Program-made: the position numbers and the translations under genes | Part shown: piece by piece, positions 1 through 29,939 of the stretch | Position numbering within the stretch: position 1 is the stretch's first letter | Layout: every line of letters starts with the position of its first letter | The notes under the pieces: model-generated | Seen by the model: the letters and a program-made list of their open reading frames with translations, nothing else | Database searches by the model: none | What the model was told of the DNA's origin: nothing | Origin: Candidatus Kapaibacterium sp. | Lineage (GTDB): Bacteria; Bacteroidota; Ignavibacteria; Kapaibacteriales; UBA4661 | NCBI GenBank assembly: GCA_025455065.1 | Contig: JALONG010000028.1 | Span: forward strand, 22,843 to 86,842 | Length of the DNA stretch: 64,000 nucleotides | Direction: 5' to 3'

Positions 1-711
1 AACGGAGTTCAAAATAATCCGTGCGCCTTTCTGGATCAGACCTTGTGCCTGCTCCTTCGTTGCAGCAACCGTACCAAGTACGAGGTTATGCCGGAGAACA
101 ATCTCGAAAATTTGGTCAATCACTTTTTTTACTTCGTCGTGCGCCGGACCGTCGTAAAAACCCATCGTCATAGCAAGGTCGCGTGGACCAATAACGAAGC
201 CATCTACACCCTTCACCTTGCACATTGCTTCCAGATTATCCATTGCTTTAATGTCCTCAATTTGCGGCAACACGAGCGTTTGTTCATTGGCAAAATTCAC
301 ATATTCGAGCTGCGATTTTTTGCCGAGCATATAATCTGAAGCCCTTACGGGACCTAGTCCACGCTCACCAAGCGGCGGGTATTTCATTGCGCGAACTAAT
401 TTTTCACAATCTTCCGCCGTGTTGCAACCCGGCATCATTACTCCCATTACGCCTAAATCCATGAACTGCAAAATCAGTTTTTCATCCAAACTACGCACCC
501 GCGCAAGCGGCGTAATTCCTACACTCTCGGCAGCACGAATCATGCCGTCGGCGTTGGAGGGCGTAATTGCGCCGTGTTCGCCGTCCAACATATAAAAATC
601 GAATCCCGCAAGACCGCAATACTCAGTAATTACGGGGTCGGTCGTAGGCGAAATCACACCGAAAATCGGCTGTCCTTTTTGGAGTTTGGTTCGTGCTTGG
701 TTTTCGCGCAT
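1..711 (-). CDS. HpcH/HpaI aldolase/citrate lyase family protein, C-terminus runs off the window
   Basis: Reverse-strand translation from the ATG at 709-711 gives MRENQARTKLQKGQPIFGVISPTTDPVITEYCGLAGFDFYMLDGEHGAITPSNADGM..., an HpaI-type TIM barrel with the D-GEHG motif; no stop before the edge. Confidence 0.85.
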   Translation of the reverse strand, partial: MRENQARTKLQKGQPIFGVISPTTDPVITEYCGLAGFDFYMLDGEHGAITPSNADGMIRAAESVGITPLARVRSLDEKLILQFMDLGVMGVMMPGCNTAEDCEKLVRAMKYPPLGERGLGPVRASDYMLGKKSQLEYVNFANEQTLVLPQIEDIKAMDNLEAMCKVKGVDGFVIGPRDLAMTMGFYDGPAHDEVKKVIDQIFEIVLRHNLVLGTVAATKEQAQGLIQKGARIILNSV

Positions 712-779
712 TGGAAGAAAGAGATAAGGGAAAAAGGATAAGGGCTTGGCAGCATTTTCAAGGCTCATTGAGTTGCGAT

Positions 780-1319
780 TTATCGTAAATCCTTCGCCGT
801 TCCATCGGCAATTTTCCGCTTGATAAATTCCATCAGCCCGCCCGAAGACGCAATTTCCGCCACAAACGGCGCAACAGGCAATGCCTGAGCCTCAAAGCCT
901 GTGGTGAGGTTTTTGATGATGCCTGTGTCAGGGTTAAATTCCAGTTCATCACCCGTTTTAACGTGCTTCACGATGTCTTTGCAGGTGATGAACGGCAAGC
1001 CATAATTGGTCGCATTGCGAAACTGCAAACGCGAGAAGGAATCCGCAAACACCGCTTGAATCCCCGCTCCCATCATGCCCGTAACAACGTGTTCAATGCT
1101 TTTGCCGCCGCCCGCAAAGTTATGTCCCGCCACGATGAACGTGTAGCCTTCGTTTTTGAAAGCATTTTCGGCATTAAATTGTTCATCAACACCCGCCATA
1201 ACCCATTTTGCGTTCTCCGCAGGGTCTATCGCGCTTGTCCAAAATTTTTGAATGATGATGTCGAACGCATACACGTATTTTTCCGACACCCATGCTTTTC
1301 CGCGTTGAATGTGAGCCAT
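780..1319 (-). CDS. 3-isopropylmalate dehydratase/aconitase small-subunit-like protein with divergent active-site motif
   Basis: LeuD-like swivel fold (FIVAGHNFAGGGKSIEHVV...AVFADSFSRLQFRNATNYGLPFI) next to a LeuC-like gene. Confidence 0.8.
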   Translation of the reverse strand: MAHIQRGKAWVSEKYVYAFDIIIQKFWTSAIDPAENAKWVMAGVDEQFNAENAFKNEGYTFIVAGHNFAGGGKSIEHVVTGMMGAGIQAVFADSFSRLQFRNATNYGLPFITCKDIVKHVKTGDELEFNPDTGIIKNLTTGFEAQALPVAPFVAEIASSGGLMEFIKRKIADGTAKDLR

Positions 1320-2833: not shown

Positions 2834-3310
2834 TCAAATTGCTGCGACGCGGCGTTCTTCAATCATCGTTAATCCCTCAAACTGCCCATTGCGACTATGT
2901 TGCCACGTGCGCATACGGTGACCGTCTTCGATAAGCGTGATGATTTCAAACAGCATTGTTCCCGGTTCGCTTTTGTATGTCCAATAGAGGTTGATAACGT
3001 CGTTGCCGGACTCCCACGCCTCGCCCTTGATGCGCGGGTTATCGAATTGCAAGCGGTCATTTTCGTCAAAATAAGACGTGCCGAAATCGTGGAACTCGCG
3101 TTTTCCGCTCTCCCATGTATATTCATTTGTTTGTGACCACTCGTTGCCGACGAGCTTCAGTGTAAGACGGCTATTGTGTTTGTCAATAACCTCGCCCTTT
3201 GGATTGATGCGCGTGTAAGTACCTTCCCAGATACCCTCATGTTTAGGAAAAATTGACAGTGCCATGGTTGTAAGAAAGAATTGTGAACACAAAAACAGTA
3301 GTTTCACCAA
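2834..3310 (-). CDS. Hypothetical protein, lipocalin/DUF3598-like appearance
   Basis: 158-aa ORF (FPKHEGIWEGTYTRINPKGEVIDKH...); start may be the internal Met at MALSIFPKHEG. Confidence 0.55.
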   Translation of the reverse strand: MVKLLFLCSQFFLTTMALSIFPKHEGIWEGTYTRINPKGEVIDKHNSRLTLKLVGNEWSQTNEYTWESGKREFHDFGTSYFDENDRLQFDNPRIKGEAWESGNDVINLYWTYKSEPGTMLFEIITLIEDGHRMRTWQHSRNGQFEGLTMIEERRVAAI

Positions 3311-3325: not shown

Positions 3326-3976
3326 TCAAAATCTCTTGTAAATAATTGGCATGGAGTACGGCGTAATCTGTTTCCCGTCTTTGATAAGCAGTTCCATCAC
3401 ACTAAAGGAATCTTTCGCAATCGTTTCTTCGAGGGTAAAACTGCCGCCCGGAAATTCATTGGGCGCTTTGATATAAAAACTTTTTGCTTCGGCATTATAC
3501 GTGTACAAGGTAGGTTTGAAGCTGGGTGAGAGTTTCAGGTCGTTGTAATCGAAGCGCAAATTTGCGTTATCGTTGCGAATGTCTTTCACGGGAATTGTCT
3601 TTGGAATCTGTATGGAATGGAGCTTCACAGCACCATTCTCTTCCGTGAACCAGAACAAATACGGCTTCACAACGGTATCTTGCGGCTTATCGGGATAGAC
3701 GTAGTAACTTTCTTCAAGGATGTAGAAGCCTTGATAATTCACGGGTTTGCCCGTTATTTTGTCATCGGCAAGGCGATTAACGTGCTTTGCGTAAGGGTGA
3801 ATTTGTTTTCCCGCTTTGCGCTCTTGCTCGACTTGTTCACGGTTGTCGAGGTCGCCTTGGATGTACTGTTTGAAAAGGTCGAAGGGTTTCATGGAAGCCT
3901 GTTGTTGGGAGAAAATTGGAATTGCAGCACAAAGAACAAGTGCTGCAGATACGAGGTTTCGTGCGGTTTTGAGCAT
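3326..3976 (-). CDS. Hypothetical secreted protein
   Basis: 216 aa with signal-peptide-like N-terminus MLKTARNLVSAALVLCAAIPIFSQQQ. Confidence 0.6.
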   Translation of the reverse strand: MLKTARNLVSAALVLCAAIPIFSQQQASMKPFDLFKQYIQGDLDNREQVEQERKAGKQIHPYAKHVNRLADDKITGKPVNYQGFYILEESYYVYPDKPQDTVVKPYLFWFTEENGAVKLHSIQIPKTIPVKDIRNDNANLRFDYNDLKLSPSFKPTLYTYNAEAKSFYIKAPNEFPGGSFTLEETIAKDSFSVMELLIKDGKQITPYSMPIIYKRF

Positions 3977-4415: not shown

Positions 4416-4925
4416 TTACAAAACATAATCACCATGCTTCTGCAAATAAGCAACCAAGCCGCCTTCAGCCAAAATATCAATCATCACCTGCGGCATTTTT
4501 GTTGCTTTGTAGGTTATTCCTGTGTTCGTATCGGTTACGCTTCCTTCCAGTAAATTTACCTCCAAAACCGCACCATTGCTAATGTTGTGGTCGGGAATTT
4601 CCAAGAGCGGCAAGCCGATATTGATAGCATTGCGAAAGAAAATTCGAGCGAAGTATCGTGCAATAACAACAGAAACTCCCACCACTTTCAGCGCAATCGG
4701 CGCTTGTTCACGCGACGAACCGCACCCAAAATTATCCCCCGCAACGATGATGTCTCCTTGCTTGACGCGGTTTTTGAAGTCAGGGTCAATATCCTCCATC
4801 ACGTGCGCCGCTAGCGACTGCACATCAAGAGTTTTGGTGTATTTGCCGGGAATGATGCGGTCGGTGTCAATGTTGTCGCCCATTGCGCCGGAATAGGCAT
4901 GAACAGTGCCTTGGAAGGTAGCCAT
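4416..4925 (-). CDS. 3-isopropylmalate dehydratase small-subunit-like protein (canonical motif)
   Basis: MATFQGTVHAYSGAMGDNIDTDRIIPGKY...NFGCGSSREQAPIALK; the supplied ORF to 5033 extends through the heptamer repeat, so the internal Met is preferred. Confidence 0.88.
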   Translation of the reverse strand: MATFQGTVHAYSGAMGDNIDTDRIIPGKYTKTLDVQSLAAHVMEDIDPDFKNRVKQGDIIVAGDNFGCGSSREQAPIALKVVGVSVVIARYFARIFFRNAINIGLPLLEIPDHNISNGAVLEVNLLEGSVTDTNTGITYKATKMPQVMIDILAEGGLVAYLQKHGDYVL

Positions 4926-4932
4926 AAAGAAG

Positions 4933-5002
4933 GGATAAGGGATGAAGGATAAGGGATGAAGGATAAGGGATGAAGGATAAGGGATGAAGGATAAGGGATA
5001 AA
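4933..5002. repeat. Heptamer tandem repeat, alternating GGATAAG/GGATGAA, ten units
   Basis: Counted directly: ggataag ggatgaa alternating from 4933 to 5002. Confidence 0.93.
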
Positions 5003-5033: not shown

Positions 5034-6287
5034 TCACAAAAACTCTGCGGGGTCAGTAATCACGCCCTTGAGAGCCGATGCCGCCACCACTGCCGCCGAA
5101 CCCAGATAAATCCTGGCGTTGGGGTTGCCCATGCGTCCTTTGAAATTACGATTTGCCGTTGAAATCACCGTTTCGCCATCGCCCGGAACGCCCAGATGCG
5201 CACCCACACACACGCCACAAGCCGCATTGGTAAAGGTCGCACCAGCTTCCATCAGCGTTTGCATCGTGCCATCGTTCATTGCCGCCAAAAAAACATTTTT
5301 CGACGCTGGAGTGATAAGCAAACGTACGTTGGGGTGAATATGCCGCCCACGCAGTATTTGTGCGGCTTCGCGGAGGTCTTCCAAACGAGCGTTCACACAA
5401 CTTCCAATAAAAGCATATTGGATTTTTGTGCCTTCCACCACCGAAATTTCCTGCACATTATCGGGCGAATTTGGCACGGCTACTTGCGGACGAAGCGAGG
5501 AAACATCGAAGGTGTAGTGCTTTGCATATTCAGCGTCCGCATCGGGAAAAATTGGCGTGAAGTCGTAATCAAGCCCAAACTCAAGTTTCAAGCCATTGGG
5601 ATGCACAATACCCGTTTTTGCACCCATTTCGGCAGACATATTCGCAATCGTCATACGGCTGGAAAGCGAGAGCGGATGCAGTGCTGAGCCACAAAACTCA
5701 ATGGCTTGATACGTCGCACCCGAAATCGAAAGCTGCCCTGTGGTGAAGAGTATCAAGTCCTTCGCCGTTACGCCCTTTTGCAGCCTACCAGTGTACTCAA
5801 TTTTCACCGTTTGCGGCACTTTGAGCCAAATTTTTCCCGTCAGCATCACCGCCGCTAAATCCGTCGAACCAACACCCGTCGCAAATGCCCCCAAGCCCCC
5901 GTAGGTACAGGTGTGCGAGTCTGCGCCGACAAATAAATCTCCAGGCTTGACGAACTGCTCTTCCACCATAATTTGATGGCAAATTCCCGCACCGACATCA
6001 AAAAGCGGGCATCCCTGCTCGGCAGCAAATTCGCGCATCATCACGTGGAGGTTTGATATTTTCTCCGTTGGAGCAGGTGCGGCGTGGTCAATCACGAGCG
6101 GAAATCGCGCAGGATTCCAAACTTTTTTACCGCTTGTGCCGACCATTTCCCGAAATGCCTTGATTGCATATGGCGCGGTTGTGTCGGTAGCCATGATGCA
6201 ATCCACGTTCACAACCGTTAGTTCGCCCTGATACACATCGCGCCCCGAGCGGGCGGAGAGGATTTTTTCGCTGATGGTTTGTCCCAT
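5034..6287 (-). CDS. 3-isopropylmalate dehydratase large-subunit-like protein
   Basis: 417 aa; FIGSCVNAR, ACGVCVG, GADSHTCTYG motifs. Confidence 0.88.
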   Translation of the reverse strand: MGQTISEKILSARSGRDVYQGELTVVNVDCIMATDTTAPYAIKAFREMVGTSGKKVWNPARFPLVIDHAAPAPTEKISNLHVMMREFAAEQGCPLFDVGAGICHQIMVEEQFVKPGDLFVGADSHTCTYGGLGAFATGVGSTDLAAVMLTGKIWLKVPQTVKIEYTGRLQKGVTAKDLILFTTGQLSISGATYQAIEFCGSALHPLSLSSRMTIANMSAEMGAKTGIVHPNGLKLEFGLDYDFTPIFPDADAEYAKHYTFDVSSLRPQVAVPNSPDNVQEISVVEGTKIQYAFIGSCVNARLEDLREAAQILRGRHIHPNVRLLITPASKNVFLAAMNDGTMQTLMEAGATFTNAACGVCVGAHLGVPGDGETVISTANRNFKGRMGNPNARIYLGSAAVVAASALKGVITDPAEFL

Positions 6288-6293
6288 GATGTT

Positions 6294-7496
6294 TTACATT
6301 TTAATGATATTTTGCTCTTCCAATGCCTGTATTTCTGTGTCATCCAAGCCCAAATCACCTAAAATTTCCCGTGTATGCTCACCAATCTGTGGAGGATTCA
6401 TCGTTAATGAAAACTCTGTACCACCCATTTCAAGCGGTATTTTGGGCAATTTTGTGCGCGTTCCGTCGGGAAGCAAGGTTTCAAGCAGGCTGCCGCCCTC
6501 ATTAAGCTGCACATCATCAAACAAATCTTCGGGTCGGGCAATCGGTGCAAAGGTAATATCTGCCTCCTCGCAACGGCTGATGATTTCTGCCTTCGTGAAT
6601 GTTCGCATCATTGTTTCAACGGCCGGCAAAAACCATTCGCGCTCGGCAATGCGGTCATTATTGGTCGTGAGGCGCTCATCATTCAGCCAATCGTCTCTGT
6701 CAAATGCTTTGCAAAAGCGCTCCCAATGTTTTTCGCTGATAAGCCCCACAAACACTGCATCGCCGTCTTTGGTATCGAATGTGCGGTAAACCGACCACGC
6801 GCTAACCCGCGCAGGCATTGGCGGTACAGGCTCTTTCGTGATTGCGCCGTACGCCATATGCTGCCCCATGAGAAACGCTGTCGTTTCAAAGAGTGCGCTT
6901 TTGACGAATGTCCCCTTGCCTGTTTGATTACGCTCGTGCAGTGCTGCGAGAATACCAATCACCCCAAACATTCCGCCCGTAATATCCACAACGGACGTTC
7001 CAGCGCGAAGCGGCATCCCAACTGGTCCTGTCATGTATGCCAATCCGCCCATCATCTGCACGACTTCATCCATCGCATGGCGCTTTTCGTAGGGACCGGA
7101 AAGAAAGCCCTTGAGCGAACAGTAAATCAGGCGTGGATTAAGCACAGATAATGTTTCGTAGCCATAGCCAAGTCGCTCCATCGTGCCGGGTCCGAAATTT
7201 TCAACGAGAATATCTGCACCTTCTACAAGCCGCATAATCACTTGCTTTCCGGCTTCGGACTTAATATCAATCGCCAAACTTTGTTTGTTTCGATTGTAAA
7301 AGGAGAAATATCCCGTTCCAAAACCCCGCAAACGCCGCGTAGAATCACCTTCCGGCGGCTCAATGTGCATGACTGACGCGCCCATATCCGCCAAGAGCAG
7401 ACCGCAAGCGGGTCCCATAACGGCGTGGGTAAATTCGAGAACGGTGATGCCCTGTAATGGTGCGCCGTGTACGCTTTTTTCTGTTTCATTCTTCAT
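6294..7496 (-). CDS. CaiB/BaiF (class III) CoA-transferase
   Basis: 400 aa; LQGITVLEFTHAVMGPACGLLLADMGASVMHIEPPEGD, LVENFGPGTMERLGYGYETL, Asp in RHAMDEVVQMMGG. Confidence 0.93.
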   Translation of the reverse strand: MKNETEKSVHGAPLQGITVLEFTHAVMGPACGLLLADMGASVMHIEPPEGDSTRRLRGFGTGYFSFYNRNKQSLAIDIKSEAGKQVIMRLVEGADILVENFGPGTMERLGYGYETLSVLNPRLIYCSLKGFLSGPYEKRHAMDEVVQMMGGLAYMTGPVGMPLRAGTSVVDITGGMFGVIGILAALHERNQTGKGTFVKSALFETTAFLMGQHMAYGAITKEPVPPMPARVSAWSVYRTFDTKDGDAVFVGLISEKHWERFCKAFDRDDWLNDERLTTNNDRIAEREWFLPAVETMMRTFTKAEIISRCEEADITFAPIARPEDLFDDVQLNEGGSLLETLLPDGTRTKLPKIPLEMGGTEFSLTMNPPQIGEHTREILGDLGLDDTEIQALEEQNIIKM

Positions 7497-7499
7497 ACA

Positions 7500-7943
7500 T
7501 TATCTTTCATCCTTTTTGAGCCAATCACCAATACCATACGGGTCTGGAAGTGGCGCAGATACGTGTTCTTGGCGGATTTGCCACATTTCTTCGGCGTTTT
7601 TACGAAGAACAAAGGTTGCGCGAAATGTTTGCTCGAAAACTTTTCCTTTCACATTCACGCGCAGTTGCAAAATCCCCGCAACCCAAGCCATAGAGCCGCT
7701 TTCCTCAGAATACGGACCTTCCGTCCACGTGATGGATTCGAGTGCCATTGGCGCAGCATTAAAATCACGCCAACCTTTGAAGATATTTTCCGTGCCAAGC
7801 GTGGAATAGCGCGGTCCTTCGACAAAAACGTACGTGTCCGCGCCTTCGACGTAAGCGGCGCAAATTGCCTCGTAATCTTTGCGAATAATTGCCTCGTAGA
7901 AAGCATCAATACTCTCTTTTGGTGTCTTCATTTCATCCTTCAT
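7500..7943 (-). CDS. SnoaL-like/NTF2-fold protein
   Basis: 147 aa; MKTPKESIDAFYEAIIRKDYEAICAAYVEGADTYVFVEGPRYSTLG... Confidence 0.75.
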   Translation of the reverse strand: MKDEMKTPKESIDAFYEAIIRKDYEAICAAYVEGADTYVFVEGPRYSTLGTENIFKGWRDFNAAPMALESITWTEGPYSEESGSMAWVAGILQLRVNVKGKVFEQTFRATFVLRKNAEEMWQIRQEHVSAPLPDPYGIGDWLKKDER

Positions 7944-8443: not shown

Positions 8444-9649
8444 CTACTTCTTCCACGCCCCAAATACATTCCACACTGCCGAGCGTCCATAATCCTCAAC
8501 TTCCGTCGGGCGCGGCTTGGTGAAATCTTCGAGGTCGTTCACGGCGCGAACACCGATTTGGAAAAAGGTTTCTTTGTTGAAGCCTGATTCTGCCATGAGT
8601 GTAGCGGGGTCAATGTCGTGCATCACGCCCCAAAACGGCTCGTTGTTGTAAAAAGCATCCCAATCACGTATGGTCTGCTCGAATAAGTCCATTTCCGGCG
8701 TGTATTGAGGCTGTTCAATGTGCATGGTGATTCCGCCGTCGGTGAGCATTCGGTAAATCTCACGCATAATGCGGTGAATGGCTTTGAATGAGGTTTCGTG
8801 CAGGAACATTGTGGTCTGAATCCAATCAAAGGACGCATCAGCAAAGCCCGTATTGGCAGCGTCGAGTTGCATGAATGTTACGTTTTTTATGCCCAAAGCC
8901 TGCGCCCGTGCATGTCCGTAACGCAACATCGGCACACCGACATCAATCGCTACAACTTCCGCGTCGGGATACGCCTGCGCAATCGGAAGCGTGTTATGAC
9001 CAAGCCCGCAGCCAATATCCAAAATACGCCTTGGCTTAAAATCTGGATGATGCGACAGTAACCACTGCGAAATTGCCTTCCCACCGCCGTCAGTGAGTTT
9101 TCCCAAGCCACCCGCCGTCGTTACAAACAAGCCCGTGTCGTAGTTTGCGGCTGCTGACACGTCGCCCTCGAAAAGTTCCGTGTGATAACTGCCTGGCATA
9201 CAGTGATTGTCCATAATCGTCAGGTAATGCGGGACTTTCACATCAGGATTCAAAACAAGTGTTGCTTTTCCGGCATTGAGTTTTTGCACTTTTTCGGCGA
9301 GTTCGGGTGCTTGACGAATCGTCATGGTACGTCCGTTTTGCTGACGCATTTCCATTGTTGTTCGCCGAAGAGCGCTCCACGTCTGGTAGTAGGGGTCGTG
9401 CTTCATTTCGGCGCGAACCTCGTCGCGGTTCTGGAAATCTCGCCCATGCTCGGCTTGAAATCGAGGTTTGACGCGCTTTTCGTAAGCAAGGCGGTTGCCC
9501 GGCGCAATTACGCCGGAAAGATGTTTGTTGAGATTTGCCAAAAAATTGTAGCGCGCTATTTCGTCATGCGTGGCTATGGGGAATACCTCGTGTTGTGTAA
9601 TGTTGCTCCAGACAGGCGGTACGGGCAGAGTTGTGGTTTTTGCGTTCAT
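8444..9649 (-). CDS. Class I SAM-dependent methyltransferase with long N-terminal extension
   Basis: RRILDIGCGLGHNTLPIAQAYPDAEVVAIDVGVPMLRYG; start chosen at MNAKTTTLPVPPVW. Confidence 0.85.
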   Translation of the reverse strand: MNAKTTTLPVPPVWSNITQHEVFPIATHDEIARYNFLANLNKHLSGVIAPGNRLAYEKRVKPRFQAEHGRDFQNRDEVRAEMKHDPYYQTWSALRRTTMEMRQQNGRTMTIRQAPELAEKVQKLNAGKATLVLNPDVKVPHYLTIMDNHCMPGSYHTELFEGDVSAAANYDTGLFVTTAGGLGKLTDGGGKAISQWLLSHHPDFKPRRILDIGCGLGHNTLPIAQAYPDAEVVAIDVGVPMLRYGHARAQALGIKNVTFMQLDAANTGFADASFDWIQTTMFLHETSFKAIHRIMREIYRMLTDGGITMHIEQPQYTPEMDLFEQTIRDWDAFYNNEPFWGVMHDIDPATLMAESGFNKETFFQIGVRAVNDLEDFTKPRPTEVEDYGRSAVWNVFGAWKK

Positions 9650-9955: not shown

Positions 9956-10389
9956 ACCTTTTACTTGATACTCACGCGCTAATATGGCTTTTAGAAGGTG
10001 ATGAAACCTTGAGTTCCAACGCATTAATCGCTATCCAAAACCCTATCAATTCTTGCTTCGTAAGCAATGCCTCTTTATGGGAAATTGCGATAAAAATTAG
10101 CCTCGCAAAATTATCCATACAACGCCCGTACCACGAAATTCCTCAACTGATTTGGCAAAATGGCATCGAAATTCTTCCTGTTGAATTTGAACATTTTCAT
10201 CGTGTTTCCGAGTTACCTTTTTACCACAAAGACCCGTTTGACCGTATTATTATTGCTCAAGCAATCGTTGAAAATATGGGCATTGTTGGTAAAGACAGCC
10301 ATTTTGTGCAGTATGAAGTGCCACTTATACCAATTTACGTTGAAGATTGTGCATTGTTTTTTCAATGCTTTTCTCTGGAAGCAGCATAA
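9952..10389 (+). CDS. vapC: PIN-domain toxin, VapC type
   Basis: MNLLLDTHALIWLLEGDETLS...NASLWEIAIKISLAKL...DPFDRIIIAQAI. Confidence 0.9.
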   Translation: MNLLLDTHALIWLLEGDETLSSNALIAIQNPINSCFVSNASLWEIAIKISLAKLSIQRPYHEIPQLIWQNGIEILPVEFEHFHRVSELPFYHKDPFDRIIIAQAIVENMGIVGKDSHFVQYEVPLIPIYVEDCALFFQCFSLEAA

Positions 10390-11439
10390 ATACTCGCACA
10401 GACAAGAATGTCTGTGCCACTGATGCGTTGCAATAAAATGTGAACGGTCAGGAATGCCCGAAAGCAGTGTGTTTGCTGGGTAAAAACTATGTTTGGCGTA
10501 TGACTCTGCAAAAAGTTCAAATCGCTGACGGGCGAGTATATTCGGCATTCCTGCGCGGTGGCGTTCATGGCGAAGTGCTGTCAAATCAAGTGTTGCGCTT
10601 GCAACCATACTCTCACCCGTACTTGCTTCCGACAGCACCAAACCGCGATAATCCACGATTTTTGAGCCGCCGTCGGTGGAAGCAAAGGGAATATCCGTGT
10701 TCGCAATTCCGGCGGAATTGGCGGAAACAACGTAGCTCATATTTTCAATCGCACGAGCAAGTTTTGCTACGTTCTTTTGCGTCAAAAGCGGACTTCCTAC
10801 TTCGCTTGAGGAGTGCAAAAATATCTCGGCACCGCGCATAGCATGGCACCGCGCAATTTCGGGATACAAAATTTCTTCGCTGGCAATACACGCCAAATTC
10901 CCAATTTCCGTCCGCGTAACAGGAAATACGCCATCTAAACCGTAAATATCCAGATACTTATCCCAAACATCATGCGGCGTGGGTGCGAACATCGAAACCA
11001 AGCGCCGATAGCGTAAAATCAGGCTTCCCAAAGGGTCAATCACAAAACTTGTTTGAAAATAGAGGTCTGGAAAATGTGCATCTTTCTCGTACGCATTACC
11101 CGATAAAAATACGCCATTCACTTCAGCGACCTTCCCCAAAGCCTCATATTCCTTACCATTTGGCTCAAGCGCCGCTTTATCGCGCCATGCCTCCAACGTT
11201 TCGCCCATCGGAAAACCCGTCAGGAAATACTCCGGCAAGACAACTAAACGCAAATCCTGTCCGATAAATGCTTTCGAGGCGCGTATTTGCTTGCTCAAAC
11301 GCTCAATCGTCTGAAGCATTTGGGCTTCAGATTCTGCGCGGTTCGGGCAATGATTCACCGCGTAACACGTGGCTTGGAGAGCGAGGGCTTTGTAAGAGGT
11401 CATTGGGGCTTGGTTACTTGGGGCTTGGTCATTAGTCAT
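10213..11439 (-). CDS. Carbon-nitrogen hydrolase (nitrilase superfamily); C-terminus probably aberrant
   Basis: LVVLPEYFLTGFPMGE, IGNLACIASEEILYPEIARCHAMRGAEIFLHSSSEVG; last ~60 aa run through a REP-like hairpin and antisense to vapC. Confidence 0.75.
   Translation of the reverse strand: MTNDQAPSNQAPMTSYKALALQATCYAVNHCPNRAESEAQMLQTIERLSKQIRASKAFIGQDLRLVVLPEYFLTGFPMGETLEAWRDKAALEPNGKEYEALGKVAEVNGVFLSGNAYEKDAHFPDLYFQTSFVIDPLGSLILRYRRLVSMFAPTPHDVWDKYLDIYGLDGVFPVTRTEIGNLACIASEEILYPEIARCHAMRGAEIFLHSSSEVGSPLLTQKNVAKLARAIENMSYVVSANSAGIANTDIPFASTDGGSKIVDYRGLVLSEASTGESMVASATLDLTALRHERHRAGMPNILARQRFELFAESYAKHSFYPANTLLSGIPDRSHFIATHQWHRHSCLCEYLCCFQRKALKKQCTIFNVNWYKWHFILHKMAVFTNNAHIFNDCLSNNNTVKRVFVVKR
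10396..10417. repeat. REP-like hairpin GCACAGACA-agaa-TGTCTGTGC
   Basis: Perfect 9-bp stem; same family as 55710-55782 and 59707-59779. Confidence 0.85.
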
Positions 11440-12765: not shown

Positions 12766-14244
12766 TTACGATTTTATACGGCTTCCAAGCCTTTGCCCCA
12801 AAAGCCGACCAAAACTGAGCGCGGGAGTAATGAGCATACCGCCGCAAAAGGCATGACCACTTGTTGCAGCAGCACCCAGAATTTCTCCGGCAGCATACAA
12901 CCCCTGAATTGGTGAGCCTTCCGTGTTCAAAACCTGCAAATCGCCATTCACCGCCAAACCGCCAAACGAAATAAGCGACGAAGCATTGATGCGAAGCGCA
13001 TAAAATGGTGCTTCTTGGAGTGGTGCGTGAAATGCGGCTCGTCCAAATTCATCTTCTTGATTGGCGAAGGTGTCTTGAAATTGAGCATTGAAGAGCGTTA
13101 CAGCGTTTTCAACATTCTGCCATGCCAAACCACACTTTTCGGCAAGTTCGCCCACACTTGATGCCGTGCGGCAGTACGTCCCACGTGCAGCGTGGGAGCG
13201 AACCATTTCGGGCGTTATCCACTGCCGCACAAGCGGCTCGTTTTCCTCGCACGATGTGCGCAAAGCGTGTTCGTCAAATATAACCCAAAACCGCCAGTTT
13301 GCTTGCTTCATCACCGCTCGTTCACGAATGTCAGCGCTTGGTTCGTCCTCGTTCATAAAGCGGTTGCCGTCGTCGTTCACGTAAATTTCACGTGTTTTGC
13401 GGTATGCCGATGAAAATACACTCGCCCACGCATCCCAATAATCCACGCGCTGCGAATTTGGCACCGTTTCAATGCCGCCCAAACTAACATTATGTTTTTC
13501 GGCATGATGAAATTTCGCGCCTATGCGCATAGCGGCTTGTATTCCCTCACCTAACGATGTGTGATTTGCCGTCGAAAAAAGCGGCGGTGCTTCCGGCAGG
13601 GTTTCGGCAAAAAATTTCGGATTTGCCGCATAACCGCCTGTTGTGAGTACAATCGCCGGAGCGTAGTATTCATGCGCTTCTCCGCGTGATTGTACTCTTA
13701 CCCCTTTCACTGCACCATTCTCACAAAGCACATCCTTTAGCGACGCACCCAAAAGTGGCGTAATTACGCCCTTTTTCACCCATTCTTCCCACAGTGGCAA
13801 AAGCAGCGAAAGCATCACCACACCGCCCCGCGCAACGTTTGCGTAATGCGTCCGCGCTGTTGTGTACGGAACGTGTCCGAAAATAATTTTTGGACAGTCT
13901 TTGTCAAACGGAAAGCCCAGCGATTCCAGCCAATTCAGCGTTTTTGGCGCTTCTTCGGTGGCAAGTTTTGTGATTACGGCATCGGCGGAATGTTCGGAAA
14001 TGCGCATCACTTCGGCACAATGCTTTTCCGGCGAATCCTTGATTCCATGCGCTTTCTGGCGATTTGTGCCGCCCCCGCTCAAATGCCCTACCGTCCAATG
14101 CAGCGTACCGCCTATCACAGTGGATTTCTCAATCACCAAAATTCGCTTCACGCCTGCTTTTGCGGCTTCGATTGCGCACGGGATTCCGGCTGTTCCCGCG
14201 CCGACGATGATGAGGTCGAAGGAAGTTATTTGGTCATTAGTCAT
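12766..14244 (-). CDS. FAD-dependent oxidoreductase (fumarate reductase/3-ketosteroid dehydrogenase-type flavoprotein)
   Basis: FDLIIVGAGTAGIPCAIEAAKAGVKRILVIEKSTVIGGTLHW; GLYAAGEILGAAATSGHAFCGGMLITPALSFGRLLG. Confidence 0.92.
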   Translation of the reverse strand: MTNDQITSFDLIIVGAGTAGIPCAIEAAKAGVKRILVIEKSTVIGGTLHWTVGHLSGGGTNRQKAHGIKDSPEKHCAEVMRISEHSADAVITKLATEEAPKTLNWLESLGFPFDKDCPKIIFGHVPYTTARTHYANVARGGVVMLSLLLPLWEEWVKKGVITPLLGASLKDVLCENGAVKGVRVQSRGEAHEYYAPAIVLTTGGYAANPKFFAETLPEAPPLFSTANHTSLGEGIQAAMRIGAKFHHAEKHNVSLGGIETVPNSQRVDYWDAWASVFSSAYRKTREIYVNDDGNRFMNEDEPSADIRERAVMKQANWRFWVIFDEHALRTSCEENEPLVRQWITPEMVRSHAARGTYCRTASSVGELAEKCGLAWQNVENAVTLFNAQFQDTFANQEDEFGRAAFHAPLQEAPFYALRINASSLISFGGLAVNGDLQVLNTEGSPIQGLYAAGEILGAAATSGHAFCGGMLITPALSFGRLLGQRLGSRIKS

Positions 14245-15283: not shown

Positions 15284-16210
15284 TTACCACCGAATATCAT
15301 CACGCTGAACAATAGAGTACATCTTGCCCGGAAGCGGTTTTTTGAGGAATTGGGCAAATTCTGAACTGACCGCCGCAACCCGCTTGACATCTATTCCCGT
15401 CGCAATGCCCATTTGATGCAGCAAATGAGCGGTGTCTTCGGTGGCGATATTCCCCGTTGCGCCCTTGATAAACGGGCATCCGCCCAAGCCACCAAACGCT
15501 GTGTCGAAAATGCTCACGCCCGCTTCCAGAGCCGCGTACAGGTTTGCCAAGCCTTTATTTTCCGTGTCGTGTTGGTGCAAAATAACAGGCTTTCCATTTG
15601 CTAATTGTACTATTTCGGTCATCACACGCCGCACGGCAACAGGGTTTCCCATACCCGTACTGTCAGCAAGCCCGATTTCATGGACTCCTGCGGCGAGATG
15701 ATGCTTCACCAAATCCAGCACAATATCTTCCGAAATATGCCCTTCGTAACGGCAACCAAACGCGCTTTGAATACCGCCACGCACCTGCAACCCCGCATCC
15801 AGAGCGATGTTCACCATTTCTTTGAACTCTGCTCGGGCTTCCGCGAGAGATTTTCCTGTGTTTTTTCGGCTGTGGGTATCGCTTGCCGAAAGCGAAACGG
15901 AAATATGCTTCAAACCCGCTTTGTAAGCCCGTTCTACGCCTTTGGTGTTGAGGGTGAGGGCTGAAAAAAGTACGTCATGTTGCTCTGGAAACAAGGAAGG
16001 AAGTTGCTTACAGAGTTCCTCCGCGTCCGCCATTTGTGGAACGAGTTTCGGATTGACAAAGGAGCACACTTGAATACGCCTCAAGCCAGATTCTACGAGG
16101 CTTTTGAGCATTTGCAATTTCATTTCCGTCGGTACAATGGTCGTCTCGGTTTGCAAACCGTCGCGCAAACCTTGTTCTTCGATGATGACGTGTTTGGGAA
16201 GTTGTGCCAT
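15284..16210 (-). CDS. Hydroxymethylglutaryl-CoA lyase-like protein
   Basis: VIIEEQGLRDGLQTETTIVPTEMK...DTAFGGLGGCPFIKGATGNIATEDTAHLLHQMGIATGID. Confidence 0.93.
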   Translation of the reverse strand: MAQLPKHVIIEEQGLRDGLQTETTIVPTEMKLQMLKSLVESGLRRIQVCSFVNPKLVPQMADAEELCKQLPSLFPEQHDVLFSALTLNTKGVERAYKAGLKHISVSLSASDTHSRKNTGKSLAEARAEFKEMVNIALDAGLQVRGGIQSAFGCRYEGHISEDIVLDLVKHHLAAGVHEIGLADSTGMGNPVAVRRVMTEIVQLANGKPVILHQHDTENKGLANLYAALEAGVSIFDTAFGGLGGCPFIKGATGNIATEDTAHLLHQMGIATGIDVKRVAAVSSEFAQFLKKPLPGKMYSIVQRDDIRW

Positions 16211-21890: not shown

Positions 21891-22132
21891 TGCAAATGCA
21901 CTTTTATGTATTTCGTGTTCTTTACCTGCGCAATTCGTAAAAGCATTTTGGGGAATATGCAGGATTACAGCATTTACATACTGTCAATTTTTTACAAGGT
22001 ATTCCTCTGGGGCAGTGCTAATTTTCATTATCATTCAAGCGTATTTGAACGCCTGAGAGCGAAAAAACTATCGCCGAAACTTCCCGTCAAATCTACTGTT
22101 TGTGGAATTATTGTCAAAAGAGGAAACGCCAA

Positions 22133-23680
22133 ATGTCAGCACAGAATCTTCCTTACGACCTCATTATCAAAAATGTTCACCTTGTTCGCCCTAAAAGCAC
22201 CAGTATTGATGCGCTTGATATAGGAATTGCGGGTGGTAAAATTGCCGCACTCGGCATCAATCTCGACCCCGCGACAGCGCATGAGACCTACGACGGAAAG
22301 GGACTCCTCGCTTTTCCCGGGCTGGTGGATGCCCATATGCACACGGGGATTTATTCGCCGCTTGAAAAAGATGCCTTGACCGAAAGCCGCGCTGCTGCTA
22401 TGGGCGGCGTTACTTCGAGCCTGAATTATATGCGCACCGGGCAGTATTATCTCAACAAATCTGCGCCCTACAAAGAATTTTTCCCCGAAGTGCTGGCAAT
22501 TTCCAACGGGCGATTTTATGTGGATTACTGCTATCATTTAGCGCCCATGATGAAAGAGCATATCGCCGAAATGCCAATGTTGGCAAGGGATATGGGCGTT
22601 ACGTCGTTCAAAATTTTCATGTTTTACGGTTCGCATGGACTTCATGGACGTTCCGCGTCGCAAAAAGATTTTTTGATGATTCCCGATGATGAAAAATACG
22701 ACATTGCGCACTTTGAATTTGTGATGCGCGGTGCGAAAAAAGCAATGGACGAAAACCCCGCACTGCGAGATATTATCAGTGTTTCGCTGCATTGTGAGAC
22801 CGCCGAAATTATGACCGCGTACACCAAAATTGTCGAAACCGAAGGGAAACTTTCAGGACTGCCCGCTTACAGTGCATCGCGTCCGCCGCACTCGGAAGGA
22901 CTTGCTATCTTCATTGCGTCCTACTTAGCGCATGAAACCGCGCTTCCCAATATCAATCTCCTGCACCTCACCTCGCGCAAGGCTGTTGATGCGGCAATGA
23001 TGATGCAAATGGTCTTTCCGCATATCAATTTTCGGCGTGAAGTAACCGTCGGGCATTTGCTCATGGACACTGATTTGAAGCCACCTTCCATGCGTAGCGA
23101 AGACAAAGAATTTTTGAAAGACAAAGCAAAACGCGACCTCGAATGGACGCAGCTTTTCGCCAAGGTCAATCCGCCCATTCGCCCCAGACCTGACGTGGAG
23201 TACCTTTGGGAGGCATTGCTTGAAGGAAACATTGATTGGGTGTGCAGCGACCACGCCTGCTGCTCAGCAGAAATGAAAACTGACGCTTCTTCGCCCGATA
23301 ATGTGTTTGTAGCAAAATCGGGCTTTGGAGGCGCAGAATACCTGCTTTCGGGAATGTTTTCCGAAGGCTCAAAACGAGGAATGTCTGCCAATCGGGTTGC
23401 AGAATTGTGTTCGTGGAATCCCGCAGAACGCTACGGCTTGAAAAGCAAAGGCGACCTTGGAATCGGCTTCGATGCTGATGTTGTGCTGTTCGACCCGAAC
23501 GAAACCTTTACCGTCCGCGCCAGTGAATCCCCTTCAGCGCAAGGCTACACGCCCTTTGAAGGCATGGAACTTACGGGGCGCGTCAAAACGACGTTCTTGC
23601 GTGGGAAAAAGATTTTTGAAAACGGAAATGTTGTTGGAGAGCCGTCGGGAAAATACTTGTCACGTCCATACACCGCGTAA
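22133..23680 (+). CDS. Dihydropyrimidinase/hydantoinase-like amidohydrolase
   Basis: DAHMHTG, VTSFKIFMFYG (candidate carboxylated Lys), VSLHCETAE, LLHLTS, VCSDHACC metal-site motifs. Confidence 0.9.
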   Translation: MSAQNLPYDLIIKNVHLVRPKSTSIDALDIGIAGGKIAALGINLDPATAHETYDGKGLLAFPGLVDAHMHTGIYSPLEKDALTESRAAAMGGVTSSLNYMRTGQYYLNKSAPYKEFFPEVLAISNGRFYVDYCYHLAPMMKEHIAEMPMLARDMGVTSFKIFMFYGSHGLHGRSASQKDFLMIPDDEKYDIAHFEFVMRGAKKAMDENPALRDIISVSLHCETAEIMTAYTKIVETEGKLSGLPAYSASRPPHSEGLAIFIASYLAHETALPNINLLHLTSRKAVDAAMMMQMVFPHINFRREVTVGHLLMDTDLKPPSMRSEDKEFLKDKAKRDLEWTQLFAKVNPPIRPRPDVEYLWEALLEGNIDWVCSDHACCSAEMKTDASSPDNVFVAKSGFGGAEYLLSGMFSEGSKRGMSANRVAELCSWNPAERYGLKSKGDLGIGFDADVVLFDPNETFTVRASESPSAQGYTPFEGMELTGRVKTTFLRGKKIFENGNVVGEPSGKYLSRPYTA

Positions 23681-24932: not shown

Positions 24933-25241
24933 ATGCCCAAAATCATCGTTCTTTTTAACCTCAAAGACGGCGTAAATGCTGGCGAATACGAATCATGGGC
25001 AAAAACTGCCGATATTCCAACGGTGAAATCTCTCGGCTCGGTCAGCGATTTCCAAGTCTTAAAATCCGCATCAATACTCGGCTCTGACGCTGCTCCACCC
25101 TACAAATACTTCGAGATAATTGATGTGAATAATATGGAGAAATTTTTTGCCGACATAAGCGCCGATGCGGTTCAGAAGGGCGCGGCACAGTTTGCGCAGT
25201 ATGCCGAAAATCCGATGTTTATTGTAACAGATAATATCTAA
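24933..25241 (+). CDS. REDY-like/HapK family small protein
   Basis: 102 aa; PKIIVLFNLKDGVNAGEYESWAKTADIPTVKSLGSVSDFQVLKS. Confidence 0.7.
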   Translation: MPKIIVLFNLKDGVNAGEYESWAKTADIPTVKSLGSVSDFQVLKSASILGSDAAPPYKYFEIIDVNNMEKFFADISADAVQKGAAQFAQYAENPMFIVTDNI

Positions 25242-25248
25242 AACCATT

Positions 25249-26100
25249 ATGGGAATCTACCAACTTCAAGGAAAAACCGCTATTGTCACAGGCTCTGGGC
25301 GCAAAGGCGGCATTGGGGAAGCAGTTATCATGCGCTTTGCGGCGGAGGGCTGTAATGTTGTTGTGTCGGATATTGGCACATCGGCAGGGGAAAACTTTCC
25401 CGGCTCTGCAATCGGCTCAACGCAAGAAATGGAGATTATTGCAGAGGATTGTCGTCAGCATGGCGTAAAGGCTATCACAGTTCCGTGTGATGTGCGCAAA
25501 GAAGCAGACATGGCTAACCTTGTGGAGCAAGCAGTAACGGCGTTTGGCAGCATAGATATTTTCGTAAACAACGCCGGAGTGGGCTATTTAATGCAACTTG
25601 TCACGGAAATGGACGAAGACAAATGGTCGGCAGTGATGGATGTGAATGTGAAGGGATATTTTCTTGGCATCAAACACGCCGGAAAGCGCATGATTGCTCA
25701 GTCGGAGGCTAGTAAAAAAGGTGGAAGAATTATCAATATCGGCTCGCAAGCCTCCAAATCAGGCTTCCCCTTCGCAGCCGCTTATACCGCATCAAAACAC
25801 GCTGTTGTGGGACTTACACGCTCTTCCGCGATTGAACTTGCCAAATACGGCATCACGGTAAACACCGTCTGCCCAAACCACATCACCACTGGCTTAGGAG
25901 CGTGGCAGAACGAATTTTTTGCCGAAAAACTTGGTTTAACACTTGACCAGTACCTCGCCCGCATGAAATCGAACATTCCGCTTGGTCGTCCGGGACTGAC
26001 GAGCGACATTGCGAAAGCCTGTGCTTTCCTTGCTTCCAGCGAAGCAGAATACATCACGGGTGAAGCGATGAACGTCAGTGGCGGCGAAGAAATGCACTGA
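25249..26100 (+). CDS. Short-chain dehydrogenase/reductase (SDR)
   Basis: GKTAIVTGSGRKGGIGEA; NNAGVGYL; AAYTASKHAVVGLTRSSAIELAKYGITVNTVCP. Confidence 0.95.
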   Translation: MGIYQLQGKTAIVTGSGRKGGIGEAVIMRFAAEGCNVVVSDIGTSAGENFPGSAIGSTQEMEIIAEDCRQHGVKAITVPCDVRKEADMANLVEQAVTAFGSIDIFVNNAGVGYLMQLVTEMDEDKWSAVMDVNVKGYFLGIKHAGKRMIAQSEASKKGGRIINIGSQASKSGFPFAAAYTASKHAVVGLTRSSAIELAKYGITVNTVCPNHITTGLGAWQNEFFAEKLGLTLDQYLARMKSNIPLGRPGLTSDIAKACAFLASSEAEYITGEAMNVSGGEEMH

Positions 26101-26160: not shown

Positions 26161-28248
26161 ATGCCCTATCGCCTAGGAATTGACATCGGCGGAACATTTA
26201 CCGATTTCGTTTTGCTCAATGAAACAAGCGGGGATTTGCATTTCGGCAAAACGCTTACCACATACCCTGACCCCACAAACGGCATCATTACAGGCACAAA
26301 GCAGGTATTGAACGATTTCAACGTGAACGCAGCCGCAATTCACACGATTGTTCACGGCACAACGCTTGTAACAAATGCCGTCATTGAGCGGAAAGGCGCA
26401 AAAACGGGGTTTATCACAACGCAAGGTTTTACCGATGTTCCCGAAATCGGGCGCGAACTTCGCTACGATATTTACGACATTTTTCTCACGATGCCTGAAC
26501 CCCTTGTGCCGCAGAAACTCCGCGTTGGCGTGGAAGAGCGCCTGAATGCAAAAGGCGAAGTTGTAATGGCGCTCACACAGGCATCTATTGAAAGAGCCGT
26601 CGAAACGCTGGTGGGACGCGGTGTTCAGTCTATTGCGGTGTGTTTGTTACATTCATTTGTGAATCCTGCGCACGAGCGCATCATTGCTGAGATTATTCAT
26701 CAAAAATACCCCCACATTTACACCTCACTTTCGGTGGATATTATGCCGGAGATTCGAGAATACGAGCGTGCTTCAGCAACCATTATGAACGCTTACGTGC
26801 AGCCGATTACAGATAAGTATTTGGAGACGCTGGAAAAGCGCTTGCGTGTGCTGGGTTTTACGGGGAATATTGATATTATGATTTCCAGCGGACGCTTGAC
26901 AACGATTGAAGGAGCAAGGAAATCGCCTGTACAGCTATTGGAATCAGGTCCGGCGGGTGGTGCAATGGCTTCGGTGTTTTTCGGAAAACTCACCGGACGC
27001 GCAGATTTGCTGGGTTTTGACATGGGCGGAACAACTGCCAAAGCCTCGCTTATTTTGAACAACAGACCCGAAATCACGAATCAATTTGAAGCTGCCAGAG
27101 TACGCCGTTTCAAGAAGGGAAGCGGCTTACCGGTGCGCATTCCTGTTATTGATTTGATTGAAATTGGTGCCGGAGGCGGCTCTATTGCTCACATTGACCA
27201 CTTGGGCTTGCTCAAAGTCGGTCCTGAAAGTGCTGCATCGCAGCCCGGACCAGCGTGTTATGGGCGCGGTGGCGATAAACCCACCGTTACAGATGCCGAC
27301 CTTATTTTGGGTTATTTGAACGAAAAATATTTCTTAGGTGGAACAATGACGCTTGACCGCGAAGCTGCACGGGAAGCCGTTCACAGGCATATTGCTGAAC
27401 CGCTCGGCATCACGATTGAACAAGCCGCAATGGGCATTCGCCGCGTGGTGGATGAAAACATGGCAAGCGCAGCACGGGTACATATTCTCGAAAAAGGCTA
27501 CGACCCGCGCCGTTTCTCAATGATTGCCTTTGGCGGCGCGGGACCTGTTCACGCCTTCAGCGTAGCACGTCTGCTCGGTTCGCCGCAAATGATTATCCCC
27601 GTCGGAGCAGGTGTAACCTCAGCTCTGGGCTTTTTGGTCTCTCCCGTTGCCAGCGAAGCGATTCGCTCCTTTGTTTGCCCGTTGGATGAAATTGATTGGC
27701 AAAAACTGAACACTATGCTTCGTGCAATGGAAGAAGAAGGGTTCGAGTTTCTACGCCATGCGAAGGCAGATGTGAGCAAGGCAAGAATCACGTGCATAGC
27801 AGATATGCGGTATGTGGGGCAGGGACATGAAATAGCCGTACCAATGCCGCTTGGTGAACTTTCTGCCGATTCCGTTGCCGAAATTGAAGCCACATTTTTA
27901 AAAGAATACCAACTCCGCTACAACCGCACCGTTCCGGCAATGCGGCTTGAAACCGTTACATGGCGTGTGGCAGTGAGCGCAGCAGCACCGGAAATCACGC
28001 CCAATCAGCCTGGGGCGGAATTTGCTAATGAAAATGCCCTGAAAGCACATCGCAGCGTGTGGTTCGTGGGAGATTCCACCCCAACGGAAACGCCTGTCTT
28101 TAGCCGCTACGCACTCAGTTCCGGCGCGGTGTTTGAGGGTCCGGCAATCATTGAGGAAAAAGAATCAACAACCGTTATCGGGAAAAATTCGACTGTGAGA
28201 ATTGATGAGTTTAAGAATATTGTGATAGATTTGCACCACGCGAAATAA
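26161..28248 (+). CDS. hyuA: Hydantoinase/oxoprolinase family protein, HyuA-type subunit
   Basis: LGIDIGGTFTDFVLL; LLGFDMGGTTAKASLI; AFGGAGPVHAFSVARLLG. Confidence 0.94.
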   Translation: MPYRLGIDIGGTFTDFVLLNETSGDLHFGKTLTTYPDPTNGIITGTKQVLNDFNVNAAAIHTIVHGTTLVTNAVIERKGAKTGFITTQGFTDVPEIGRELRYDIYDIFLTMPEPLVPQKLRVGVEERLNAKGEVVMALTQASIERAVETLVGRGVQSIAVCLLHSFVNPAHERIIAEIIHQKYPHIYTSLSVDIMPEIREYERASATIMNAYVQPITDKYLETLEKRLRVLGFTGNIDIMISSGRLTTIEGARKSPVQLLESGPAGGAMASVFFGKLTGRADLLGFDMGGTTAKASLILNNRPEITNQFEAARVRRFKKGSGLPVRIPVIDLIEIGAGGGSIAHIDHLGLLKVGPESAASQPGPACYGRGGDKPTVTDADLILGYLNEKYFLGGTMTLDREAAREAVHRHIAEPLGITIEQAAMGIRRVVDENMASAARVHILEKGYDPRRFSMIAFGGAGPVHAFSVARLLGSPQMIIPVGAGVTSALGFLVSPVASEAIRSFVCPLDEIDWQKLNTMLRAMEEEGFEFLRHAKADVSKARITCIADMRYVGQGHEIAVPMPLGELSADSVAEIEATFLKEYQLRYNRTVPAMRLETVTWRVAVSAAAPEITPNQPGAEFANENALKAHRSVWFVGDSTPTETPVFSRYALSSGAVFEGPAIIEEKESTTVIGKNSTVRIDEFKNIVIDLHHAK

Positions 28249-28257
28249 TCAAATACT

Positions 28258-29823
28258 ATGACAACCAAATACGATCCCATTACCCTAAGCATCCTCTGGT
28301 CGCGCCTTTTGGCGATTGTGGATGAAGCTGGAACAACGCTTCAACGCACGTCGTTCTCGACCGTAACCCGCGAATCCAACGACTTTGCGGTTGTTCTCAT
28401 GGACAAATACGGGCGCTCCATTGCGCAATCCGGCATTAGTGTTCCGTCATTTTTGGGCGTACTGCCGATGCTCACGCAAGCGCTCTTGAAGGACTATTTT
28501 CCGCCGGAATCGTGGGCGGAAGGCGATACCGTCATGACCAACGATCCTTGGTTGTGTGCAGGACACAAGCCTGATATTGGCTTAGTATCGCCAATTTTCA
28601 AATCCGGTGCGCTGATTGGCTTTATTGGTACGATTGCTCATTCACCCGATATGGGCGGTGCGCTCTGGGGCGCGGGTGGGCGGGATTTGTACGAGGAAGG
28701 TTTAATGGTTCCGCCCACAAAGCTCGTCATTGCTGGTGCGGAGAATGTGACGCTCTTCAATATCATCGAAGCAAATGTGCGTGTGGCAAAGCAGACCATC
28801 GGCGACATTCGCGCCCAACTTGCCGCCAATGAGCAAGGTATTTCCTCGCTTATGCGGCTTATGGACGAAATGGGTATGGAAAATTTACAAACTGTTGCCG
28901 AACAGGTCATCGAAGCGAGTGAACGCGCCATGCGCGAGGCTATTCGCAAAGCACCCGACGGCACATACCGCTACGAATACGATGCCGACGGCGATGGTCT
29001 CGAAAACCCAGTCCACATCTCGTGTGCCGTGACGATTAAGGACGACGAAATTTTTGTGGATTATGCCGGAACATCCGGCGCACACCCGCTTGGAATCAAC
29101 GCTGTGATGAATTACACCTATGCTTATACCGCCTATCCGATAAAATGCGCCTTCAGCCCTGATGTTCCCAACAACGAAGGCTCATTCCGCCCGATTCATG
29201 TAACCGCGCCGAAAGGTTCGTTGCTCAATGCACAAAAACCCGTCCCGCTTGGTGCGCGGAACATCACGGGAAATATCCTCCACGCGGCTGTTTTTGGTGC
29301 GCTTTCGGAGGCAGTTCCCGCACAAGTGCAGGCAGATTGCGGTGCGGCGTGTTGGTGCGTTGTACTGAATGGTCATGACACAAGGAAACATCAGGATTAC
29401 GTCGAATACTTTTTCCTGAATGGTGGTTACGGTGCGCGTCCGACGATGCACGGTATTCCGACGCTCAGTTTTCCGACGAATGTGGCAAATGTGCCGATTG
29501 AAGTGCTGGAAAATAGTGCGCCCATCATGGTTACGGAAAAATCGCTCCGGCGCAATTCCGGCGGCAAAGGCGTGTACGATGGCGGTGCAGGGCAGCGTTT
29601 CTCGTTCAAAAATGTTGGTGAAGACCCCATCAATATTTCCATTCTCACCGAAAAAACGAAAACCGTTGCACGCGGCTTGCAAGGCGGTTTGGACGGTAAA
29701 AAAGGGAAAATCAGCATCAGACCAAAACGCTTCATTGCGCCCAAAGGCTTGGATAAACTTATGCCGAATGAAGAAATTGTGCTGGATTTACCGGGCGGCG
29801 GCGGCTTTGGAACACCGGATTGA
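28258..29823 (+). CDS. hyuB: Hydantoinase/oxoprolinase family protein, HyuB-type subunit
   Basis: YDPITLSILWSRLLAIVDEAGTTLQRTSFSTVTRESNDFAVVLMD; LDLPGGGGFGTP C-terminus. Confidence 0.94.
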   Translation: MTTKYDPITLSILWSRLLAIVDEAGTTLQRTSFSTVTRESNDFAVVLMDKYGRSIAQSGISVPSFLGVLPMLTQALLKDYFPPESWAEGDTVMTNDPWLCAGHKPDIGLVSPIFKSGALIGFIGTIAHSPDMGGALWGAGGRDLYEEGLMVPPTKLVIAGAENVTLFNIIEANVRVAKQTIGDIRAQLAANEQGISSLMRLMDEMGMENLQTVAEQVIEASERAMREAIRKAPDGTYRYEYDADGDGLENPVHISCAVTIKDDEIFVDYAGTSGAHPLGINAVMNYTYAYTAYPIKCAFSPDVPNNEGSFRPIHVTAPKGSLLNAQKPVPLGARNITGNILHAAVFGALSEAVPAQVQADCGAACWCVVLNGHDTRKHQDYVEYFFLNGGYGARPTMHGIPTLSFPTNVANVPIEVLENSAPIMVTEKSLRRNSGGKGVYDGGAGQRFSFKNVGEDPINISILTEKTKTVARGLQGGLDGKKGKISIRPKRFIAPKGLDKLMPNEEIVLDLPGGGGFGTPD

Positions 29824-29897: not shown

Positions 29898-29939
29898 TAG
29901 TGAGACTCGGAAATTTTTAGAACACTTTTGCGCAAAACT

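Follow-up and report, generated by a model that had tools for sequence, protein, structure and literature searches.

What does an aconitase-type hydro-lyase do once the serine and arginine of its small subunit have both been replaced? The question is raised by a LeuD-like small subunit of 179 residues, here called the variant LeuD, in a stretch of 64,000 nucleotides from a Candidatus Kapaibacterium genome (the window; Table 1). An earlier note, made from the letters alone, had pointed to a rewritten motif, GHNFAGGGKSIEH, at 1089-1127 (residues 65-77) and to a missing NIDTDRIIP motif, and both are indeed what the frame encodes. The stretch YAFDIIIQKFW stands where the paralogous small subunit of the same window (4416-4925, complementary strand) has NIDTDRIIPGKY, and the motif of that paralogue reads GDNFGCGSSREQA. 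GCGSSRE has thus become AGGGKSIE, and DTDxIIP is gone. In the numbering of mitochondrial aconitase, which the Protein Data Bank entry titles for the S642A and R644Q mutants place on the SSR triplet, Ser642 is replaced by Lys73, Ser643 is kept as Ser74 and Arg644 is replaced by Ile75. The alignments further place Glu76 opposite Glu645 and reveal an insertion of one residue between the Phe and the Gly loop. The two replacements, already proposed in the earlier note, stand with this insertion added, as the loop is anchored on a conserved E-H helix. Aconitase uses Ser642 as its general base, and even the highly divergent aconitase X depends on the counterpart, Ser70, for activity (PMC8184944), in keeping with the catalytic role that had been ascribed to the lost residues. 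The active-site residues, the serine base among them, are described as fully conserved across the aconitases, with aconitase X as the sole exception (PMC8184944). Our literature searches found no earlier report of Ser642/Arg644 swaps.

Profile comparison, proposed earlier as a check, places the variant LeuD below all curated LeuD family cut-offs. The protein reaches 103 bits against TIGR02084 (1.2e-29; cut-off 245.85) and 90.7 bits against TIGR02087 (LeuD/DmdB; cut-off 108.95), the NCBIfam family model for the DmdAB-type small subunit. The nearest solved relative is the small subunit of a methanogen isopropylmalate/citramalate isomerase (PDB 3vba, 5.3e-32). The predicted structure has the swivel (aconitase C) fold, with 3vba, 2pkp and 1v7l as top matches, in a model of mediocre confidence (mean pLDDT 76, with loop residues 69-72 below 50).

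The motif is shared by 18 genomes of several Bacteroidota lineages, collected by a genome scan and whole-genome searches, which answers an earlier call to look for other such small subunits. Among these genomes HNFAGGGKSIEH is identical in proteins otherwise down to ~65% identical, and the only variable residue of the motif is the one before His (G or A). The general-base serine and the arginine of SSRE are absent from all 18, with Lys73 and Ile75 in their places. Carriers include the window genome, the Kapaibacterium MAG SKYG85, Chitinophagia, Chitinophagaceae, Saprospiraceae and other Bacteroidetes MAGs. As a comparison, 30 loci were retrieved from across the phylum with the LeuD/DmdB model; a motif search could read 29 of these ordinary LeuD-family loci, and each time the motif was GCGSSRE. 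The KSIE form is rare, occurring in 8 of 299 genomes in the order of G406, in one of 150 in the family of G407 and in at least 5 of 396 genomes of a phylum sample. An exact-pattern scan of the latter found only two, an undercount since G022, G043 and G140 carry an A-H-N-F version outside the pattern. No plasmid relative of the variant LeuD exceeds 36.7% identity, and SSRE is present in the three haloarchaeal relatives that were read. An identical run in 18 genomes of different lineages does not stem from chance or sequencing error. An ordinary isopropylmalate dehydratase misread through a frameshift or assembly error is hardly credible. Databases would call the protein LeuD by similarity, but open frames with the same motif occur in 18 independent assemblies, and canonical leucine and TCA enzymes are separately encoded in the genome. 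We conclude that the pair represents a genuine active-site variant in the aconitase superfamily, and a fixed one; our literature searches turned up no earlier description of it.

A housekeeping role finds little room in this genome. The genome encodes four aconitase-family large proteins, i.e. two at the gene cluster described below, a 484-residue LeuC-like protein (contig C83) and a 908-residue aconitase-like protein (C126), as well as a separate LeuD-like small subunit on contig C55. With leucine and TCA enzymes encoded elsewhere, the variant pair is not housekeeping, and the canonical LeuC-like, LeuD-like and aconitase genes rule out an ordinary leucine enzyme. Judged from context, the separate loci and the catabolic neighborhood speak against a part in the leucine pathway, and the surrounding genes point to degradation rather than to leucine synthesis.

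The large subunit has changed as well. The variant LeuC (421 residues) matches PF00330 at 1.4e-85, and its three Fe-S cysteines C302/C362/C365 correspond to C358/C421/C424 in all proteins compared. As the earlier note described, it keeps FVGTCTNGR and CAAC and has DSHANTYG...NAVSVSD, whereas the ordinary paralogue at 5034-6287 has DSHTCTYG...TGVGSTD. D100, H101, H147, D165, S166, H167, N258, N446, R447 and R452 are retained in all eleven variant LeuC proteins. Glu262 is replaced by Asp (Asp222) in 11 of 11, compared with Glu in 12 of 12 comparison proteins. Other fixed changes absent from the 12 are DSHT or DSHS to DSHA and an extra residue in HWNGHLIY. In the trees of both subunits the KSIE pairs form one matching clade with 100/100 support, and this clade is unplaced relative to other LeuCD lineages, the outgroups being few and some long-branched. 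Given the matching clades and the subunit-specific fixed residues, the two subunits diverged together, as had been suspected. In some genomes, an amine-oxidase/protoporphyrinogen-oxidase-like flavoprotein lies between the two genes (L110:7961-9298, L111:8172-9512, L113:5373-6734).

These replacements might have altered the chemistry or merely the substrate. It is quite possible, if short of probable, that the chemistry is unchanged, with Ser74 replacing Ser642, Lys73 taking over the carboxylate binding of Arg644 and substrate preference alone shifting. Ser74 is invariant and most other catalytic residues of the variant LeuC are kept. The insertion could shift the register of the poorly modeled loop, and Ser74 might move into the base position since residues 69-72 have pLDDT below 50. 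The downstream E-H helix, however, anchors the alignment and places Lys, not Ser, at the Ser642 position. A drifted or non-catalytic small subunit, either regulatory or a pseudoenzyme, would account for the loss of two residues considered essential, yet is very unlikely given that a run of 12 residues stays invariant in an otherwise diverging protein (down to ~65% identity), and that the partner keeps all cluster ligands. We suggest instead a functioning two-subunit Fe-S hydro-lyase, probably from the LeuCD/DmdAB branch of the superfamily, with a rebuilt proton-transfer and carboxylate-binding loop in the swivel subunit. The acid/base would be Lys73 or the kept Ser74, and the loss of Arg644 would suit a substrate different at one carboxylate, such as an alkyl-substituted or half-amide acid.

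The neighborhood gives an indication of what this substrate might be (Table 1). Cluster families were defined across nine genomes and then checked in further genomes. A fixed-order core consists of DUF3598, variant LeuC, variant LeuD, HpaI-type aldolase, HapK/REDY-like, SDR, HyuA and HyuB genes, usually followed by a methyltransferase-like and a SnoaL-like protein. The aldolase occurs in the cluster of all nine genomes, and in almost every cluster the DUF3598 protein lies upstream of the variant LeuC. In the window genome, the LeuC-LeuD-HpaI part and the HapK-SDR-HyuA-HyuB part are separated. DUF3598 loci are also found on Novosphingobium plasmids.

Table 1. Features of the variant LeuCD locus and its gene cluster (window coordinates).
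Feature	Position	Strand	Evidence
HpcH/HpaI-type aldolase, directly downstream of variant LeuD, runs off window	1..768	-	PF03328 1.5e-29; HpaI model 5.8e-45, below cut-off
Variant LeuD, small (swivel) subunit, 179 aa, aconitase C-terminal domain family	780..1319	-	PF00694 8e-7
Rewritten motif GHNFAGGGKSIEH	1089..1127	-	residues 65-77, in place of GxNFGCGSSREH
Variant LeuC, large subunit, 421 aa	1468..2733	-	PRK00402 3.9e-151, above cut-off
DUF3598 N-terminal-domain protein	2834..3271	-	PF12204 1.2e-9; PDB 2o62 6.4e-5
Family F13, CpcT-like fold	3326..3976	-	Foldseek and hhalign
Second LeuD, ordinary SSRE motif	4416..4925	-	TIGR02087 3.4e-59, above cut-off
Second LeuC, ordinary	5034..6287	-	PRK00402 2e-165
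CoA-transferase family III	6294..7496	-	PF02515 3.6e-110
SnoaL-like protein	7500..7943	-	PF13474 7.7e-12
Methyltransferase-like protein F7	8444..9646	-	conserved in cluster
Carbon-nitrogen hydrolase, candidate half-amidase	10213..11439	-	PF00795 5.1e-27; 7/9 clusters
FAD-dependent fumarate-reductase/flavocytochrome-like oxidoreductase	12766..14244	-	TIGR01813 1.8e-59, below cut-off
HMG-CoA-lyase-like enzyme	15284..16210	-	PRK05692 1.5e-89, above cut-off
Cyclic amidohydrolase (allantoinase/hydantoinase/imidase group)	22100..23680	+	TIGR03178 4.7e-63, below cut-off
HapK/REDY-like small protein	24933..25241	+	family F16; homologue L018:11344-11652 PF11639 1e-7
SDR dehydrogenase	25249..26100	+	conserved cluster family
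HyuA / caprolactamase-alpha-like ATP-dependent lactamase subunit	26161..28248	+	family F10; homologue PF01968 2e-88; homologue vs caprolactamase alpha 8.6e-166, below cut-off
HyuB / caprolactamase-beta-like subunit	28258..29823	+	family F11; homologue PF02538 8.7e-144
Aldehyde-dehydrogenase-like protein	29928..31355	+	named by sequence reading; family F12, 8/9 genomes

A second module combines the SSRE LeuCD pair with a CoA-transferase III, an HMG-CoA-lyase-like enzyme, a cyclic amidohydrolase and a CN-hydrolase or isochorismatase. On haloarchaeal plasmids (Halorubrum, Haloferax, Natrinema), isochorismatase, amidohydrolase, CoA transferase, HMG-CoA lyase, LeuC and LeuD (SSRE) form a tight operon, apparently a general module for an undescribed degradation pathway. 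An LLM flavin oxidoreductase accompanies the operon in two of the three haloarchaeal plasmid loci (L059, L061, L064). Wherever its surroundings were read, the variant pair is part of a catabolic cluster with many lactam/imide-opening enzymes. Going by the family names, the chemistry could run from imide opening through half-amide hydrolysis, hydration of a substituted maleate and CoA activation to lyase cleavage. Cyclic-imide-derived diacids, guessed earlier as substrates, fit the neighboring amidohydrolase, CN-hydrolase/isochorismatase and HyuA/HyuB genes. Literature searches yielded no paper on a bacterial pathway matching the cluster.

A link to pigments comes from two further protein families. 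Family F17 is CpeT/CpcT by sequence (PF06206 1.4e-32, and also 4.1e-27; 6e-11 against the phycocyanobilin lyase CpcT, 4o4o) and occurs in six of the nine clusters as well as in those of G022, G043 and G140. In the window genome its gene (L004:12277-13311, i.e. G000:C80:20276-21310) lies ~1.5 kb below the window start and is the sole CpeT/CpcT gene, as it is in the relative G006. Family F13, with a CpcT-like fold, belongs to no Pfam family and occurs in seven of the nine clusters. Its confident model (pLDDT 88) has CpcT 4o4o as top Foldseek match (E 9.1e-6, probability 1.00) followed by CpeT 5hi8, and its profile aligns to that of F17 with an hhalign probability of 92. The comparison of DUF3598 with the CpeT profile found no relationship. 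Both F17 and F13 are of the bilin-lyase type, F17 by sequence and F13 by predicted fold, though a CpcT fold is no proof of bilin binding. The fold is also found outside proteins known for bilin binding, with a weak match to the chloroplast CRL protein, and CpeT homologues occur in 18 of 61 (~30%) related genomes without the cluster. Hypothetical proteins 33-46% identical to F13 are encoded on the Clostridioides difficile plasmid pB12_2 (L060:1-570) and a Lachnospira eligens plasmid (H37, H38). We know of no bilin context for these relatives. No ring-cleaving bilin oxygenase was identified, and the only candidates seen for a bridge-cleaving oxygenase, or another enzyme that would free the single rings, were VOC-family, FAD and amine-oxidase-family proteins.

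Taken with the context, we see an about even chance that the variant pair is a divergent Fe-S hydro-lyase in lactam/imide ring catabolism, perhaps of rings from bilins or other tetrapyrroles. The enzyme would hydrate or dehydrate an intermediate produced by ring opening. More weakly, the source of the substrates might be bilins or other tetrapyrroles. Oxidative breakdown of chlorophyll and heme is known to yield maleimides and hematinic acid, which have been reported from leaves and lake sediments (PMC7318184; PMC10343206). Oxidized pyrrole rings would be methyl-ethyl- or methyl-vinyl-maleimide and hematinic acid, which the amidohydrolase, HyuAB and amidases could open to 2,3-disubstituted maleates. 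The two LeuCD pairs might hydrate these maleates, and the products might be cut by the CoA-transferase with the HMG-CoA-lyase-like enzyme and by the HpaI-like aldolase. On ring opening, hematinic acid would give a methyl-substituted cis-homoaconitate, and methyl-ethyl-maleimide an analogue of dimethylmaleate, so that two pairs would suit two ring types. Against this scheme, the usual substrates of HpaI enzymes are 4-hydroxy-2-oxo acids rather than substituted malates. The full combination is possible but less likely: lysine as catalytic base in place of serine, together with an undescribed bacterial route that mineralizes bilins or other tetrapyrrole fragments, first to maleimides, then to disubstituted maleates and malates, and finally to pyruvate and acyl-CoA.

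The same enzyme and context could instead serve another lactam, imide or N-heterocycle (nicotinate-, pyrimidine-, hydantoin-type or caprolactam-like), a possibility that we take seriously without favoring it. The best-scoring models are caprolactamase for HyuA and allantoinase/hydantoinase for the amidohydrolase, and the haloarchaeal operons have the imidase-CoA transferase-HMG-CoA lyase-LeuCD part along with the flavin oxidoreductase and isochorismatase. DmdAB, moreover, hydrates dimethylmaleate in nicotinate fermentation. Two CpcT/CpeT-type cluster families would, however, be without an obvious role there. For a tetrapyrrole substrate, the cluster makes testable which enzymes return the pyrrole rings of chlorophyll and phycobilins, pigments made and destroyed on a huge scale, to central metabolism. 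Even with another substrate, ~25 conserved co-localized gene families are a clear target, as literature searches found no described pathway.

Several known systems come close to the variant pair and its cluster. The archaeal-type isopropylmalate/citramalate isomerase LeuCD (3vba small; 4nqy/4kp1 large) has the same layout of two subunits and the same swivel fold, aligns over the full length, and shares the Fe-S cysteines and most catalytic residues of the large subunit. The variant pair differs by the rewritten loop with its insertion, the loss of DTDxIIP, E262 to D, DSHA, the additional residue in HWNGHLIY and a catabolic context. 2,3-dimethylmalate dehydratase DmdAB and maleate hydratase have LeuCD-type subunits and would resemble the pair in acting on 2,3-disubstituted maleates. 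To our knowledge, both keep the standard SSRE motif. Aconitase X (cis-3-hydroxyproline/phosphomevalonate dehydratase) was likewise recruited to another substrate with an altered active site, but it keeps the base Ser and changes Fe-S ligands (PMC8184944), whereas in the variant pair the ligands are retained and it is the base position that has a new residue. A lineage in which the serine and arginine of SSRE are both replaced and fixed thus provides a natural experiment on Fe-S chemistry. Within the cluster, HyuA and HyuB fall into the families of the ATP-dependent lactamases HyuAB, caprolactamase and OplAB (PMC11033972) and score well below the caprolactamase equivalog cut-offs. F17 and F13 resemble the phycobiliprotein lyases CpcT/CpeT (4o4o, 5hi8), yet in Bacteroidota they adjoin catabolic genes, unlike CpcT/CpeT of phycobilisome gene context.

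The cluster of the window also encodes a CcbP-type calcium-binding protein (3996-4388) that is not conserved in other genomes. Short, near-perfect intergenic repeats lie between cluster genes at 1320-1450 and 4926-5000 (cttggttgcttagttacttggggc; ataagggatgaagg).
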